This document shows, piece by piece, positions 8,162 through 34,685 of a stretch of 64,000 bases of DNA. The stretch covers positions 2,666,001 to 2,730,000 of the forward strand of contig NZ_CP089588.1 of assembly GCF_021249345.1 (NCBI RefSeq). Direction: 5' to 3'. The notes beneath the pieces were generated by a model, which saw nothing but the letters and a program-made list of their open reading frames with translations, was not told the origin of the DNA and did no database searches. The position numbers were made by a program, and so were the translations under genes. Each line of letters begins with the position of its first letter. Within the stretch, counting starts at the first letter, position 1. This DNA is from Halobacterium wangiae (GTDB lineage: Archaea; Halobacteriota; Halobacteria; Halobacteriales; Halobacteriaceae).

Positions 8162-9340
8162 TCAGAACCCGAAGATGGGGACGTAGCGGAACGTCAGGAA
8201 CGCGCCGACGGTCCCGACGAGGGGAACGAGATTCTGCATCAGGATGACCCGCGCCGTCGTCCCCGGGTCGAAGAGGTCTCCCGCGCTCGGGATGTCCTCG
8301 GGCTCCTCCTCGCCGATCGCGGGCACCTCGTCGCGGTCCTCGTCCGCCGCGAGGCCGCCCACGCTCACGGGCACGTCCTCCTCGCCGCGGACCACGTCCG
8401 GCACCGACACCGGTCGGGTGGCCCGCCCCCAGCCGAGACCGACGATGCTCATCGTCGCGATGACGACGAAGCTCGCCGGGATACCGATCGCCGACAGGAA
8501 GATGACGAGCGTCGCGCTCACCGTCGCGACCACGATGGCCGCCGTCAGCGGGAGTTCGGTGATGTCGCTGCCCATCGTCTCCAGCGTCCGGCGCGCGATA
8601 GTGAACGCGCCGATACCGACCGCGAGACAGCCCAGCAGGATGGCCGGGTTCATCTCGATGACGTCGCTGCCGACGAGCGGCGCGATGGCGTTGGCGATGT
8701 TGCTCGTCCCGGAGCTGAACGCCATCAGGCAGCCGATGGCGATGACCGTTACCACGCCGAACAGCTCCTTCCGGTTGGTCGACTCCTCCGGCGTGGGGAC
8801 CGGCACCGCGCCGGACCGGTCGAGTTCGACCAGCGCCCCGTCGCTGCGCTCCATCGCGATGATGCGGTGGAGGCGCGCGTAGAAGTACCGGCCGATGATG
8901 AGCGACACCCAGAAGCCGATGACGGGGGCGACGATCCACCACGTCGCGATCTCGCCCATCACGGCCCAGTTGAGTTCGTTGCGGGCGAACCCGAGGCCGG
9001 CGATGGCGCCGACCGCGGTCATCGACGTGGACGCGGGGACGCCGAAGACGTTACCGACGAACAGCGCGAGGCCGATGAAGAACAGCACGCCGATGCTGGC
9101 CTCCAGCGTGAAGATGCTCGGGTCGTAGACGAGCTCGCGGCCGAGGGTGTCCACGACGCGACGGCCGAGGGTCCACGCCCCGACGAAGAAGAACGCGGTC
9201 ATCAGCGCCGCTGCCGACGACTTCGAGAGCGCGTCCGCGCCGACTGCCGGCCCGAACGCAGGCCCGGTCGTCGACCCGCCGACGTTGAACCCGACGAACA
9301 TCGCCACCAGGATTCCGACGAGGAGGAGGACGCCGATCAC
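8162..9340 (-). CDS. PiT-family inorganic phosphate permease
   Basis: A 392-residue membrane protein with about ten predicted helices. The two inverted PiT signatures are visible: GFNVGGSTTGPAFGPAVG near the N-terminus and SSGTSNIANAIAPLVGS in the second half, both variants of the GANDVANA loop that binds phosphate. A soluble acidic loop (VRGEEDVPVSVGG and following residues) precedes the last helix. The GTG start at 9340 is preceded by GGAGGTG and directly by the first helix. The gene upstream on the same strand encodes the tetrapeptide-repeat membrane protein, 67 bases away, so the two are probably co-transcribed. No PhoU-like partner is adjacent. Confidence 0.88.
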   Translation of the reverse strand: MIGVLLLVGILVAMFVGFNVGGSTTGPAFGPAVGADALSKSSAAALMTAFFFVGAWTLGRRVVDTLGRELVYDPSIFTLEASIGVLFFIGLALFVGNVFGVPASTSMTAVGAIAGLGFARNELNWAVMGEIATWWIVAPVIGFWVSLIIGRYFYARLHRIIAMERSDGALVELDRSGAVPVPTPEESTNRKELFGVVTVIAIGCLMAFSSGTSNIANAIAPLVGSDVIEMNPAILLGCLAVGIGAFTIARRTLETMGSDITELPLTAAIVVATVSATLVIFLSAIGIPASFVVIATMSIVGLGWGRATRPVSVPDVVRGEEDVPVSVGGLAADEDRDEVPAIGEEEPEDIPSAGDLFDPGTTARVILMQNLVPLVGTVGAFLTFRYVPIFGF

Positions 9341-9407
9341 GCCACCACCTCCGAGACGTCGGTCTCGGTGGTCTGCCGGCTCACTGCCGGCCGCACGCCG
9401 TTCCGGA

Positions 9408-10163
9408 TCACGGTGACGCCTCGTCTTCGTCGTCCGCTTCGCCGCTCGCTTCCCCTTCCTGTTCCTCCAGTTGCTTCTCGACAGTTTCGTCGACCTTCTC
9501 CTCGACAGTTTCGTCGACCTTCTCCTCGACGGTCTCTTCCACCGTCTCTTCGACCGTCTCACCCACCGTCTCCTCGACGGTTTCCTCGACAGTTTCGCTG
9601 ACTTTCTCTTCGACGGTTTCACCGACTTTCTCCTCGACCGTCTCGCCGACCTTCTCTTCGACGGTCTTGTCGACGGTCTCCTCGACGGTTTCGCTGACCG
9701 TCTCTTCGACAGTTTCGCTGACCGTCTCTTCGACAGTTTCGCCGACCTTCTCCTCGACAGTTTCGCCGACCTTCTCCTCGACTGTCTTGTCGACGGTCTC
9801 CTCCACCGTCTCCTCGACGGTTTCGCTGACAGTCTCCTCGACAGTTTCACCGACCGTCTTCTCGACGGTTTCGCCGACAGTCTCCTCGACCGTCTCGCCG
9901 ACCGTCTGTTCGACTGTCTGTTCGACGGTCTCGCCGACCTTCTCGTCGACGGTCTCTTCGACGGTTTCGCCGACCACCTGGGTCATCCACTGCGGGTCGA
10001 AGCGCGCCATCTTCCAGCCGATGTGGAGGATGTACGACGCCAGCACGCCGAAGCCGAACGCGAGTCCGGTCTCCGTACCGACGACGAGAATCAGACCGAC
10101 CGACACGAAGATGAGAACTCCGTACGCGAGGTCGGTGAGACTGTCGACGCGACGTGGGTTCAC
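9408..10163 (-). CDS. Membrane-anchored tetrapeptide-repeat protein (41 tandem repeats)
   Basis: A 251-residue protein. Residues 12-50 form two transmembrane helices with a short turn. Residues 66-229 are 41 uninterrupted four-residue units of the pattern (E/K/Q)(T/K)V(E/G/S/D), and residues 230-251 form an acidic tail. The GTG at 10163 is chosen because GGAGG lies eight bases before it; a start further upstream would add about 40 Cys- and His-rich residues that do not look haloarchaeal. A continuous charged helix with a valine every fourth residue is likely, coating the membrane or forming a bundle. The position directly upstream of the PiT permease suggests a helper role for phosphate uptake, but this is inference. 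I recognise no family. Confidence 0.8.
   Translation of the reverse strand: MNPRRVDSLTDLAYGVLIFVSVGLILVVGTETGLAFGFGVLASYILHIGWKMARFDPQWMTQVVGETVEETVDEKVGETVEQTVEQTVGETVEETVGETVEKTVGETVEETVSETVEETVEETVDKTVEEKVGETVEEKVGETVEETVSETVEETVSETVEETVDKTVEEKVGETVEEKVGETVEEKVSETVEETVEETVGETVEETVEETVEEKVDETVEEKVDETVEKQLEEQEGEASGEADDEDEASP
9477..9968 (-). repeat. 12-base tandem repeat tract (41 units) inside the tetrapeptide gene
   Basis: The coding repeat is 492 bases, exactly 41 units of 12 bases, each a variant of GAGACCGTCGAG-like codons. Unit sequences differ mainly at synonymous and at the first and fourth residue positions, so the tract is old enough to have diverged yet keeps perfect register. It also keeps antisense frames open, which creates spurious reading frames. 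Confidence 0.95.
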
Positions 10164-10352
10164 GGGTGGTTCCTCCGTTCTACAGTGTTGACCGCCGGAT
10201 TGGTCTCTCTGGCGGTGGGAGTGCTCGCAAGCAAGATACTTGTAGTTGTGGGCGCAGTCCTGATATCGGTTCCGGTGTGAGCAGTCCACCGGTAGCCGTC
10301 CTCGCGGTCTCTATCCGAAACGCGTACCCCGACGGGGTGACTCCGTGGCGAT

Positions 10353-17224: not shown

Positions 17225-18397
17225 CTACTGCGTGGTGGTCGGTGACACGACACTCGAGGTGGCGAACAGCGGGTCCAGCGCGAGGATGCCGTCGTCCTCT
17301 GTAGTCGTCGTGTTCTCTTCCGTCGTTGTCGTCGTACTCGTGCTCGTCGTCGTAGTCGTCGTGGACTGTTCGTCGCTGGTCGTCGTGGTGGTCGTGTCCT
17401 CGGTGCTGTTCGAGTCGTCCGTGTCATCGGACGCGGTGTCGCCCTTCGTGCCGAAGAAGTCCGTCTCGATGGTCTCCGTGTGGGTCAGTTCGTCGAGCTC
17501 CGCGCGGAACGTCTCGTCCGTGCCCGGCGGCTCGATCTCCGCGTAGAAGTCGATGCGGAGCTCCGTCGTCTGGTCGTTCTCGACGTGGCTCACCCACCAG
17601 TCGTCGAGTTGCTCGTTGTCGATGACGGTCCGCGTCTCCACGACGCGGTAGGTCTTCCCCGGGATGGTCTCGGTCTCCTCGGTCTCACCGGACCCCATCT
17701 GCACGTCGTTCATCGTGATGTCGTAGCCGACGTTCGAGATGGCGACCGGCGTCGCCTTCGGGTTGTAGACGCCGAACTCGATGCGGATGGGCGTCTCGCT
17801 GTCGGTGACGGTGCCCCACGAGGCGTTCGTCTGGCGGATGACCACCACCGGGTCGTCGACGAGGGCCATGTTCGAGTTCACCGGGCGGTCCTCGCTGGAG
17901 TTGAACTCGCCGACGAGGTCCGTGTCGATGGACTCGGTCGCCGGCTGGAACGTCGCCGACCGGCCGAGTGTTCCGGACTTCACGTTCGCGGAGACGGCGA
18001 GGTCCGTGTGTTCGCCGTTCCGGATGTGACTCGTCCACCAGGCGGGGATGCGCTCGTTCTGGAGGTACGTCGTCAGGTTCACCGTCGAGTTGCCGGTGCC
18101 GATACCGACGCCCCGCTTGGTCCCCTGGGCCATCGCGACGTCGTTCATCGTCACCGTGTAGTTCACGTCCATGTTACCCAGCCGGACTCCGACCGGGTTC
18201 GGGTTGTGCACCACGAGGTCCGTCTCGATGGCGGTGTCCGTCTCGTTGACGTCCCCGAACCGGTTGTCGATGCGCTCGACGCTCGGGACGCCGACGACGC
18301 CAGCGAGGAAGGCGCCGCCGACGGTCAGTCCGAGACCGAACACCACAGTCGCGACTATCCGTAGTTTGCTGCCGAACAGCAACGCTCGCGCGTCCAT
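17225..18397 (-). CDS. LEA-14-type surface protein with two WHy domains and Thr-rich tail
   Basis: A 390-residue protein. An N-terminal membrane helix (IVATVVFGLGLTVGGAFLAGV) is followed by two repeated water-stress/hypersensitive-response domains, about residues 40-165 and 185-320. The repeats are recognisable by VHNPNPVGVRLGNMDVNYTVTMNDV and VYNPKATPVAISNVGYDITMNDV. A Thr-rich stretch (TTTTTTSDEQSTTTTTT and similar) follows, then a mildly hydrophobic end. LEA-14 proteins are linked to desiccation and stress; this one would be extracytoplasmic and probably glycosylated on its tail. The ATG at 18397 begins MDARALLFGSK. Confidence 0.85.
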   Translation of the reverse strand: MDARALLFGSKLRIVATVVFGLGLTVGGAFLAGVVGVPSVERIDNRFGDVNETDTAIETDLVVHNPNPVGVRLGNMDVNYTVTMNDVAMAQGTKRGVGIGTGNSTVNLTTYLQNERIPAWWTSHIRNGEHTDLAVSANVKSGTLGRSATFQPATESIDTDLVGEFNSSEDRPVNSNMALVDDPVVVIRQTNASWGTVTDSETPIRIEFGVYNPKATPVAISNVGYDITMNDVQMGSGETEETETIPGKTYRVVETRTVIDNEQLDDWWVSHVENDQTTELRIDFYAEIEPPGTDETFRAELDELTHTETIETDFFGTKGDTASDDTDDSNSTEDTTTTTTSDEQSTTTTTTSTSTTTTTEENTTTTEDDGILALDPLFATSSVVSPTTTQ

Positions 18398-24118: not shown

Positions 24119-25126
24119 CTATGGTCCCGCTTCGGTCGTGGTGGTGTTCGACTCTGCCGTGGTAGTGGTGGTGGTGGTGCCCGGCTCTGTCGTTGTAGTG
24201 GCGGTAGTGTTCGACTCAGTCGTGGTGGTGCCCGGCTCTGTCGTGGTCTCTGTCGTGGTGGTCGTGGTGTTCGACTCTGTCGTAGTAGTGGTGGTGGTGG
24301 TGTCTGATCCGTCCGTTTCGTTCGACTCCGAGGGAAGCTGGATCGTCTTGCTGGCGTCCTCGGCGGGGATCACTTCGAACGGCGTGTCCGCCGGTGCGTC
24401 GTCGGGGTTCAAGTACCCCGCCGCGATGGCAGAGTAGGCCGTTCCGCCCTCGAGTGAGACGTCGGCCGTGGTGACGACTTCACCGTCGTTGTCCTCGGAC
24501 GCAGCGCGGATCTCGACGGTGTAGTCGCCCTCGGGGACGGTCATGTACTCCGAGGCGTTCTGGTAGCTGACGTTCTCGGCGAGCACGACGCTCCCGTTGT
24601 CCGTCGTGACGTCGACGGCGGGCGCGTCGGGCGAGAGGTGCACGACGCGGAGCGCCGACTCGTCGTCTGCCGGCGTGATGGCGGTGTCGTTGTAGAGGAC
24701 GGGCTCGAAGCTCGTCTCCGCGTCCTCACTGATCTCGCCGCTGGCAGCCACGGTCGTCACCGAACCCGGATCGAGCGTGACCTCGCCATCGAACACCACG
24801 GTGTCCGGGTCGTCGGCCGCGGCGATGGTGACGTTGTACGTACCCGACTCGAGCGTGAGGTAGTCGCTGACGTTACCGAACGACACGTCAGACAGGACGG
24901 TCTCGTTGTCGACCGAGACGTCTACCGCTGGCGCATCGGGTGCGGCGTGGACGACGCGGAGGTACGCACTGTTCTGTTCGTCGTCTGTCTCTTGAGTACT
25001 CGATTGCCCGGTCTGCGCGACGGCTCCGATCGCCATCGTGCCTCCGATCAGTGCAACCGAGAGCAGTACGGCGATCAGCTTCTTGGATGTTAGTTCTGAC
25101 AGCACACCTATCGATTCGGACGACAC
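24119..25126 (-). CDS. Secreted/surface protein with two DUF4397 domains and Thr-rich tail
   Basis: A protein of about 335 residues. A signal segment (KKLIAVLLSVALIGGTMAIGAVA) precedes two DUF4397 domains marked by AYLRVVHAAPDAPAVDVSVD and ALRVVHLSPDAPAVDVTTD. The C-terminal 65 residues are a low-complexity tail of TTTTT, ESNTT and EPG units with many N-x-T sequons, likely a glycosylated stalk. The start is uncertain: GTG at 25126 and GTG at 25105 are both possible. DUF4397 proteins are extracellular and of unknown role; they are numerous in haloarchaea. Confidence 0.82.
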   Translation of the reverse strand: MSSESIGVLSELTSKKLIAVLLSVALIGGTMAIGAVAQTGQSSTQETDDEQNSAYLRVVHAAPDAPAVDVSVDNETVLSDVSFGNVSDYLTLESGTYNVTIAAADDPDTVVFDGEVTLDPGSVTTVAASGEISEDAETSFEPVLYNDTAITPADDESALRVVHLSPDAPAVDVTTDNGSVVLAENVSYQNASEYMTVPEGDYTVEIRAASEDNDGEVVTTADVSLEGGTAYSAIAAGYLNPDDAPADTPFEVIPAEDASKTIQLPSESNETDGSDTTTTTTTTESNTTTTTTETTTEPGTTTTESNTTATTTTEPGTTTTTTTAESNTTTTEAGP

Positions 25127-25454
25127 GCTCTTTGTTATCTGTAACCAGTCGAGAGAAACGCAGGGCAAAATCTGGCATCCCGAGAACGTGTCCGAGTAGT
25201 GGCGTTCGACACGGCTGACTGTCCGAGGGCTACTCGCAGGCGTGCTCGGTAACCCGAGCGAACCGCTTCACTCGAGGGGTTCGGCCCGTTTCGAGCCGCC
25301 GAGTTGAACCGCCCGACACGACTGGCCTACGGTCGAGTAACACCAGCGTACGGCCCGGAGTTCTCGTGAACGACAGGAGTACGGTCGAGTTGCCTGCGAG
25401 TGCACGCTACCGTCTGATGCGTCTCCGCCGGAGTGGGGGCGCGCCCGCGGCCAC
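25127..25454. other. Gap without recognised gene
   Basis: About 330 bases between the DUF4397 gene and the kinase gene. I see no coding frame with haloarchaeal codon use, no tRNA and no clear hairpin. An 11-base direct repeat, TACGGTCGAGT, occurs at 25327-25337 and 25379-25389. The part next to 25126 presumably holds the DUF4397 promoter. Confidence 0.5.
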
Positions 25455-32673: not shown

Positions 32674-33972
32674 CTACGCGGTGCGTGCCGCGCCAGCGTC
32701 GAGTGCGTCGCCGGCCTTCCGGGCCTCCTGCTGGACGATGTACGAGCGGTCGTCAGTGTACTCCGCGGCGACGTCGAGGGCGTCCTCGGTGCCGATCTGG
32801 ACGAGCGCCCACGCGGCGGACGTCCGGACGCTGTCGGAGTCGTCGTCGTCGAGCACGTCCGCGAGCGGCTCGATGGCTCGCGTGTCACCGATGAGGCCCA
32901 GCGAGCGGGCGGCTTGGCTGCGTACGCCCTCGTCGTCGGCGACGAGCTGGTCGGCGACGTCCTGGGTGACCTCCTCGCTACCGATCTCGCCGAGCGCCTT
33001 GATAGCGGTCGTCTGGAGTTTGCGGTTGCTGTCGGAGTCGACGTAGTCGATCACGTGTTCGACGCCGTCCTCGCTGCCGATCTTGCCGATGATCTCGATG
33101 GCGCGCAGGTCGCGGCGCGCGGCGAGCTGTCCGACCTCGTCGAGGGCCTCCACGCTGCCGATGTGGAGGAGTGCGTCCATGCAGTACTCCTCCATGAAGT
33201 CGGTGTCGCCCATGTGGTCGAGGACGAGCAGGATCATCTCGACGTTCCCGCGCTTCTTCCACTCCTTGAGCGCGCTCAGCTCCGGGGGGAAGTCCTTGTG
33301 CTTCTGGTTGATGACGTCGTAGTAGCCCTCGTACTGGAGCTTCTGTCGGACGGAGAGGTCGTCCCACTCCTGGGCGTCCTCGACGCCCTCGGTGAGGCCG
33401 TCGGTGGCTCCCACCAGCGCCGCGATGGTCTCCGCGTCGGTGTCCGGGTGCAGGTCGGCGCTCTCGACGGCCGTGACGACCTGGTCGAGGTCGTCGGCGA
33501 GTGCGTCCGGGTCGGCGGTGTCGCCGCCGGTGAACGTCTCGCCGAGCACGTCGGCGGCCTCGTCGAGGAACGCGTTCACGGTGGCCTGCAGGTCCTTTTC
33601 GCCCTGTTCGGTCCAGCGCGTCTCGCGCATCGTAGACTGGGCCTCCTCGACGTCCGAGACGGCGTCCTCGGCGTACGGACCGCGCTGTGCGTCGAGGTCG
33701 TCGCGGAGTGCCGAGAGCCGCGTCTCGAGGGACTCCTGTGGGTCCTCCTCGTCTTCGTCGTCCGGTTCCGGCAGGTCCGTCGCCTCGAGGTCGCTCTCGA
33801 CTTCGTCGAGTTCCGCCTCGACCTCGTCGAGTTCGGCCTCGGTCTCGGCCGCTTCGAGGTCGGTCTCGGCGCCGTCGAGACGCGTCTCCAGCGTCTCCAC
33901 GTCGACGTCCGCGACCTCCTCGTCGGGCGTCTCCCCGGGCGTCTCGTCGGGTTCCTCGTCCCCGTCGCTCAT
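32674..33972 (-). CDS. HEAT-repeat protein with acidic coiled-coil N-terminus
   Basis: A 432-residue protein from ATG 33972 (MSDGDEEPDETPG). Residues 20-80 are an extremely acidic coiled coil (LETRLDGAETDLEAAETEAELDE and following). Residues 225-430 contain HEAT/PBS-lyase-like repeats, for example LQTTAIKALGEIGSEEVTQ, VRSQAARSLGLIGDTRAIEP and VRTSAAWALVQIGTEDAL. It is a soluble scaffold of unknown partner. I would not infer phycobilisome function from the repeat name. Confidence 0.85.
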   Translation of the reverse strand: MSDGDEEPDETPGETPDEEVADVDVETLETRLDGAETDLEAAETEAELDEVEAELDEVESDLEATDLPEPDDEDEEDPQESLETRLSALRDDLDAQRGPYAEDAVSDVEEAQSTMRETRWTEQGEKDLQATVNAFLDEAADVLGETFTGGDTADPDALADDLDQVVTAVESADLHPDTDAETIAALVGATDGLTEGVEDAQEWDDLSVRQKLQYEGYYDVINQKHKDFPPELSALKEWKKRGNVEMILLVLDHMGDTDFMEEYCMDALLHIGSVEALDEVGQLAARRDLRAIEIIGKIGSEDGVEHVIDYVDSDSNRKLQTTAIKALGEIGSEEVTQDVADQLVADDEGVRSQAARSLGLIGDTRAIEPLADVLDDDDSDSVRTSAAWALVQIGTEDALDVAAEYTDDRSYIVQQEARKAGDALDAGAARTA

Positions 33973-33995
33973 ACTAACGCGTTCCGCCAGCGCGC

Positions 33996-34685
33996 CTATG
34001 AGCGTTTCCCTTCGGCCCGCCAGTAGAACCGCGGTGCGAGGAGGAGGTAGGCCAGCGCCCACGCCAGCAACGCCCGGGGGAACGACCGCGAGAGCGCCAG
34101 CGGCGCGAGTAGCGCGGCCGCCTGGACCACGCCCATCGCCAGCGCGTCGCGAGGGTACAGGTCCGGGTAGGTTATCGTCGTCACCATCAGCACGGTGAGG
34201 ACCCCGGTGGCAGCGACGACCACCAGCGGGTCGGAGACGCCGGCGAGGACGCCCGCCGCGAGCAGTGTCGCCGCGAGCGTCGTCGGCACGCCCTCGGTGT
34301 GCGCGTTCCCGGTGTCGTAGGCCGTGTACATCCCGAGACGGACCACGCCGGCGGCGACGAACAGTGCGCAGATGCCGACCGCGAGCAGCGCCCGGGGCGC
34401 CGCGAACCCCCAGGTGTCGCCGACTCGTGCCGCCACGATGAACGCCGGCGCGACGCCGAACGACGCCACGTCGGCGAGCGAGTCGAGGTGTTCCCCGGCC
34501 GGCGTCGACCCGTACCGCCGCGCGAGCAGGCCGTCGAGGCCGTCCGCGATGGCCGCGAGCAGCACCAGTCGCGCCGCGAGTTCCACGTCGACGGTCGCCG
34601 CGACGACCGCCACGAAGCCGAGCGCCGCGTTCGCCGACGTGACGGCGTCCGCGACGCCCAACCGGCCGACGAACCGGGGGTGCAT
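33996..34685 (-). CDS. pssA: CDP-alcohol phosphatidyltransferase, archaetidylserine synthase type
   Basis: A 229-residue protein with about seven membrane helices. The CDP-alcohol motif is DGLLARRYGSTPAGEHLDSL followed by AD, giving the conserved DG..AR...G...D...D pattern that binds the metal and CDP-lipid. The DSLADVASFGVAPAF part is typical of the serine-transferring subtype. In haloarchaea this enzyme makes archaetidylserine and is linked to lipid anchoring of archaeosortase substrates. The HEAT gene follows 23 bases later. Confidence 0.85.
   Translation of the reverse strand: MHPRFVGRLGVADAVTSANAALGFVAVVAATVDVELAARLVLLAAIADGLDGLLARRYGSTPAGEHLDSLADVASFGVAPAFIVAARVGDTWGFAAPRALLAVGICALFVAAGVVRLGMYTAYDTGNAHTEGVPTTLAATLLAAGVLAGVSDPLVVVAATGVLTVLMVTTITYPDLYPRDALAMGVVQAAALLAPLALSRSFPRALLAWALAYLLLAPRFYWRAEGKRS

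Follow-up and report, generated by a model that had tools for sequence, protein, structure and literature searches.

The DUF485 (YjcH/ActP) and DUF4212 small subunits of sodium:solute symporters are two-helix accessory proteins encoded 5' of secondary transporters. The Pit accessory protein DUF47, a PhoU-like protein encoded together with bacterial pit genes, is soluble and has no transmembrane hairpin. Repeats of 11 amphipathic residues are found in apolipoproteins, synuclein and perilipins. Here we describe a haloarchaeal protein, encoded beside a permease gene of the PiT superfamily, which combines a two-helix membrane domain with a long tract of four-residue repeats. It lies in a stretch of 64,000 nucleotides of Halobacterium wangiae, hereafter the window. 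With a probability of about 0.5, we propose that this haloarchaea-specific hairpin protein serves one clade of PiT-superfamily oxyanion permeases as an accessory or clustering subunit.

The hairpin gene and its flanking sequence

The open frame described by the earlier note is present at exactly that place, and the features around it are as follows.

10172..10176, minus strand: ribosome-binding site GGAGG, 5' of the GTG start, as read from the sequence
9408..10163, minus strand: hairpin/tetrad-repeat gene of 251 amino acids (open frame, homologues, dN < dS)
9975..10163, minus strand: N-terminal domain, residues 1-63, with two predicted transmembrane helices leading to a WKMARFDPxWMT end (homologue conservation and structure model)
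9477..9980, minus strand: tetrad tract, 42 x (E/K/Q)(T/K)V(E/G/D/S), residues 62-229 (count of Val spacing)
9408..9476, minus strand: acidic C-terminal end, residues 230-251 plus stop codon, without the RVDRRPR cap
9341..9407, minus strand: 67 intergenic bases separating the gene from the permease; GGAGGTGG precedes the permease start
8162..9340, minus strand: partner permease of the PiT superfamily (PF01384), with both signature aspartates missing, CysP-like

The start codon is GTG with a GGAGG just 5' of it, and a second GGAGG sits inside the gap, 5' of the permease start. A count confirmed the gap of 67 bases; in congeners it is 34-38 bases long or replaced by a start/stop overlap. The hairpin gene is a real and conserved gene. 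A noncoding frame, or one that merely results from the expansion of a 12-base DNA repeat, would agree with the long open frames on the opposite strand, which are common in GC-rich haloarchaea. Against it stand the conserved N-terminal domain with dN far below dS, the Val phase that is constant across genera, the saturated third positions within the repeats and the ribosome-binding site at the start, so that we rejected this reading, on codon statistics and N-terminal conservation, as having next to no chance of being right.

Elsewhere in the window, the minus strand encodes a protein with a long Thr-rich tail and two similar domains, probably secreted (24119-25168), a threonine-rich linker (17250-17450) and an acidic (E-L-D-E-V-E-A) coiled-coil-like stretch (33700-34000).

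A conserved membrane hairpin specific to Halobacteria

We defined the family by the N-terminal 62 residues. One scan of GTDB species gave 12 loci, 11 of them convincing; the match in Desulfovibrionaceae (L012) was discarded as a chance match. Homologues of the hairpin occur in 34 of 59 relatives and in 99 of the 145 Halobacteria genomes that are at least 90% complete, covering 41 of 58 genera. A phylum-wide sample of 247 genomes contained 34 positives, all of the window's own order, and no sampled genome outside the class Halobacteria had a homologue. Across 22 homologues, 18 of 64 positions of the N-terminal domain are invariant, including D7, D11, Y14 and G15 and, after helix 2, W50-K51-M52, R54, D56-P57 and W59-M60-T61. 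Comparison of the N-terminal 62 codons with those of eight relatives gave dN of 0.01-0.26 and dS of 0.25-0.83; conservation is much stronger in the hairpin than in the tail.

The impression that the protein belongs to no described family was borne out: searches of Pfam, NCBIfam and PDB found no family or sequence relative covering the hairpin domain. The hairpin alone had nothing convincing in Pfam, the best match being VirB3 (E 0.02), below the cut-off. Pfam matches of the tail (CdrL_M, YpjP, EcsC, DUF445 and others) and the NCBIfam matches of the protein rest on the repeat tail and were rejected as effects of composition. On haloarchaeal plasmids the gene is annotated 'hypothetical protein', and our literature search turned up no report of this family, of such tetrad repeats or of a haloarchaeal PiT protein partnered in this way.

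AlphaFold2 and hydropathy agree on the two membrane helices of the earlier note, modelled at residues 3-27 and 30-54 with pLDDT of about 75-80. The tail is modelled as helical with pLDDT of about 40-70 and an overall pTM of 0.24, and a short variant gave a similar shape at lower confidence (pTM range 0.24-0.25); these models are too weak overall to establish a fold of the tail. Given the N-terminal Arg and the Lys/Arg residues after helix 2, the positive-inside rule places both ends of the protein probably in the cytoplasm.

Pattern and helix geometry of the tetrad tract

Valine occupies each fourth position 42 consecutive times over residues 62-229, the QVVG at the start included. When the same residues were shuffled 2000 times, runs averaged 3.4 and were never longer than 9. 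The perfect four-residue period following two helices and the consensus (E/K/Q)(T/K)V(E/G/D/S) thus hold as first described, while the length, put at 164 residues or 41 units, is 168 residues or 42 units by our count. Adjacent tetrads alternate in an octad super-period of the ETVE-ETVG type, with a nucleotide identity between tetrads of 0.79 at lag 2 and 0.67 at lag 1. The third base of codons 2 and 4 is nearly random (entropy 1.8 of 2 bits) and the Val codon keeps GT-; the saturated third positions and the retained Val codon indicate a maintained amino-acid pattern rather than fresh DNA slippage. In the tail from residue 62 onwards, acidic residues outnumber basic ones 74 to 12. A search of the same genome for other tetrad-repeat proteins gave none that was convincing (best E 0.04).

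Within the helical range, the hydrophobicity spectrum of the tract peaks only once, at 90 degrees per residue, where the amplitude is 1.96, compared to 0.07 at 102.9 and 0.05 at 98 degrees. The hydrophobic moment at 100 degrees is 1.68 over 11 residues and 0.14 over 36. The tract therefore lacks the canonical heptad or hendecad hydrophobic periodicity of coiled coils, in agreement with the earlier note. A peak at 90 degrees means that, on a standard α-helix of 3.6 residues per turn, the stripe of valines circles the helix once per 36 residues. Such a turn argues against a long-range standard heptad or hendecad coiled coil, and also against the earlier suggestion of wrapping on a membrane, in so far as the tract would lie there along a single lipid-facing side. 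The tract might coil into a very tight right-handed superhelix or make short local contacts; if fully helical, the tail would be ~250 Å long.

Variable length of the tail and the RVDRRPR cap

The longest run of tetrads, counted in 102 homologues as an uninterrupted V, I or M at each fourth residue, varies from 5 to 66 units. The window protein has 42 tetrads in this run and its closest relative (G001) has 54, within a range of 30 to 54 for the counted species of the same genus. Homologues adjoining the same permease go down to 5-7 tetrads, so the long tract is not essential. Counted from the membrane domain, the Val phase does not shift between homologues, running V64, V68, V72 and so on in their alignment. 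These runs of up to 66 units provide natural length variants for a period-4 helix outside the usual coiled-coil rules.

A segment RVDRRPRxDEVEE is conserved in 38 of the 102 homologues, including those of loci L143, L144, L154 and L166. This cap begins after residue 88 in several homologues and after residue 251 in the longest, a range over which the intervening tetrads behave as a spacer of free length. The cap is missing in the window protein and in its closest relative, and several congeners read VEAVEERYGDED at the cap position, which looks like a decayed RVDRRPR cap. Overall, the tetrad tract is a variable-length spacer, accompanied in those 38 homologues by the cap.

Identity and putative substrate of the partner permease

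The neighbouring permease matches PF01384 with 155.6 bits (cut-off 33.7) and aligns with TmPiT (PDB 6l85) across both halves. The aspartate of the GANDVANA signature is missing from both: the N-terminal half reads GGSTTGPA, with Thr, and the C-terminal half TSNIANA, with Asn; these replacements are conserved across the permease clade. According to a review (PMC5840216), phosphate transport requires the signature aspartates, and the sulfate permease CysP has Gly and Asn in their place. The best NCBIfam model is likewise CysP (NF053884), at 172.6 bits, below the cut-off of 400. As both signature aspartates are replaced, with the change in the C-terminal half as in CysP, the designation 'phosphate' permease in the earlier note is unsupported, and we do not file the protein as a phosphate transporter. 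Its motifs fit sulfate or a related anion better than phosphate, and we read the partner as a CysP-like member of the PiT superfamily with sulfate or a related anion as putative substrate.

The genome has six PF01384 genes (L213-L218, of which L215 is the window permease), and none has the canonical motif. The lack of the GANDVANA aspartate in all six paralogues makes the automatic label 'inorganic phosphate transporter' doubtful in haloarchaea, and calls into question its routine use for a large set of haloarchaeal PiT-superfamily genes.

Genetic linkage and co-occurrence of the hairpin gene and the permease

We placed 102 homologues and examined flanks of ~6 kb at 100 loci, where neighbouring genes were called by a simple script that missed the centre gene in four loci and possibly some short genes. 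In 35 of the 102, the permease gene follows directly downstream in the same orientation, no more than 400 bp away, with a gap of about -3 to 240 bp and several start/stop overlaps; in 24 it lies directly upstream and divergent within 400 bp; one further permease lies upstream on the same strand and five lie at greater distance. Altogether, 65 homologues have a family permease within 6 kb and 59 directly adjacent within 400 bp, compared to about 0.1 direct neighbours expected by chance, while 37 have none within 6 kb. The gene is thus genetically linked to the permease. The earlier note would have been refuted by homologues lacking a PiT neighbour in most genomes, which is not what the tabulation showed; to its question whether a PiT gene always follows, the answer is a strong but not universal link. 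For the 37 homologues with no permease nearby, no other constant partner was found, and outside the four g11 genomes described below their neighbours vary.

In a tree of 133 permeases, a single large clade holds the adjacent permeases, whether downstream or divergent, and is distinct from the second PiT-superfamily type found at some of these loci; the exceptions are L163 and L116, the latter in a neighbouring clade. Well-supported branches of this tree force at least three changes of the 'downstream' label and at least five of the 'divergent' label. The gene and the permease clade co-occur: the clade is present in 94 of 99 genomes with the hairpin gene versus 8 of 46 without (Fisher p 1.4e-21), and in 39 of 41 versus 4 of 17 genera (Fisher p 7e-8, genera tallied by hand), p-values that are overstated because species are not independent and the best-match threshold for the clade, 1e-143, was set after the data had been viewed. 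Within four genera of mixed presence (g32, g51, g26 and g49), the gene and the clade are present or absent together; g14 disagrees. The clade without the gene was seen in G038, G052, G070, G109, G137, G148, G162 and G167. Where the hairpin gene stands alone, a clade permease is usually encoded elsewhere in the genome, as in genus g11, and no hidden hairpin gene was found beside unlinked permeases in 40 loci.

Two genomes (G089 and G117) have two hairpin copies each, every copy adjoining its own permease and paired with its own permease clade; each gene and its permease have their nearest relatives largely at the same loci. Distances among hairpins and among permeases correlate with a Mantel r of 0.64, reached in 0 of 2000 permutations; both this correlation and the co-occurrence contain shared species history. 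The hairpin gene together with a PiT-superfamily gene is also carried by large plasmids of Halobaculum and Natrinema (NZ_CP081960.1, NZ_CP082248.1 and NZ_CP096020.1; loci L227-L229).

Several recurrent neighbours were observed besides the permease. Next to the hairpin gene or the permease, a UspA-like gene is found repeatedly (cluster c1, 32 loci). Loci of family f8, such as L109, L127, L143, L144, L146, L147, L159 and L160, form a recurring cluster, often in the order of divergent permease, hairpin gene, convergent UspA-like gene and a PiT-superfamily gene of a second clade. At the four g11 loci L148, L156, L161 and L162, which have no linked permease, the hairpin gene is followed after 103-129 bp by a same-strand gene of an APC-family transporter. 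The Halobaculum plasmid record has a sensor kinase and nirK close to the hairpin gene.

Proposed role of the hairpin protein

In the proposed model, the hairpin in the membrane would be the working domain, contacting the permease or further copies of itself. The tail would form a long, strongly acidic, mostly helical cytoplasmic stalk whose length is evolutionarily free, and in many homologues would also bear the RVDRRPRxDEVEE segment as a coiled-coil cap; in the window lineage the cap would have decayed and left the stalk alone. Oligomerisation of the subunit might then stabilise, gather or gate the permease. Contact, topology, oligomerisation and an effect on transport are what we infer. Of the earlier suggestion of a scaffold or regulator of phosphate uptake, the partnership with the permease is retained on adjacency and co-occurrence, and phosphate is given up with the lost Asp signature. 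A more specific version, in which a novel permease subunit in molar salt uses a length-variable, tight right-handed superhelical stalk of period 4 to cluster permeases in the membrane or to hold a cytosolic partner at a given distance, is improbable in our judgement; if true, the tetrad stalk would add to the known long repeats a structural class beyond the heptad and hendecad series.

The 37 homologues off the permease, with their unrelated neighbours, would suit a general membrane-organising or mechanical protein, such as a scaffold, a spacer or an envelope-associated filament, linked to the permease by shared regulation, e.g. in a salt or ion response. The very long and variable tail and the UspA-like genes that recur at the same loci point the same way. 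However, such a protein predicts neither the usual absence of the specific permease clade from genomes without the gene nor the matched pairing of paralogues, and we regard it as rather unlikely. The recurrent UspA-like gene, together with the conserved charged cap, could instead speak for a sensor or regulator of the permease, whose tail or cap binds, for example, the UspA-like neighbour while the hairpin relays the signal. Yet the cap is missing from the window protein and from most homologues, many of them permease-adjacent, and no ligand-binding or enzymatic domain was recognised in Pfam or NCBIfam, which leaves this reading with a low probability. Inherited synteny, by which an unrelated gene has simply stayed beside the permease, draws on a data set that stems in large part from related species; it is very improbable in view of the two orientations, the same pair on plasmids, the co-occurrence even when unlinked and the joint presence or absence within the four mixed genera. 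The reading as a permease subunit offers a testable function for a family that about two thirds of the near-complete Halobacteria genomes carry and whose members, where seen, are annotated 'hypothetical protein'.

Comparison with known systems

The repeat tail matches CdrL_M (PF24252) of CdrL (PMC7439475) with 34.4 bits against a Pfam cut-off of 27. The best stretch spans 22 of 77 model positions, and the protein has a membrane hairpin in place of the RHH and double zinc-ribbon domains of CdrL, so the match was put down to composition.

With DUF485 and DUF4212, the hairpin gene shares two encoded helices and a short gene immediately 5' of a transporter, often touching it. This placement is true for 35 of the 102 homologues and is an analogy, not membership; neither the whole protein nor 22 hairpin domains gave a Pfam match to either family at E up to 1. 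The hairpin gene differs from both in its PiT-superfamily partner, its tetrad tail and its sometimes divergent or unlinked position. Like DUF47, the hairpin protein is small and helical and its gene adjoins a PiT-superfamily permease, but it gave no Pfam match to DUF47 and has a membrane hairpin instead.

The partner permease resembles CysP of Bacillus subtilis (TC 2.A.20.4) in belonging to PF01384, in the loss of the signature aspartates and in the Asn of the C-terminal half, whereas the Asp of the N-terminal half is replaced by Gly in CysP and by Thr (GGSTTGPA) in the partner. Finally, the tetrad tract is long, regular, charged and compatible with a helix, as are heptad and hendecad coiled coils and 11-residue repeats. 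It differs from all of these in a period of exactly 4, by which its stripe circles the helix instead of keeping to one face.
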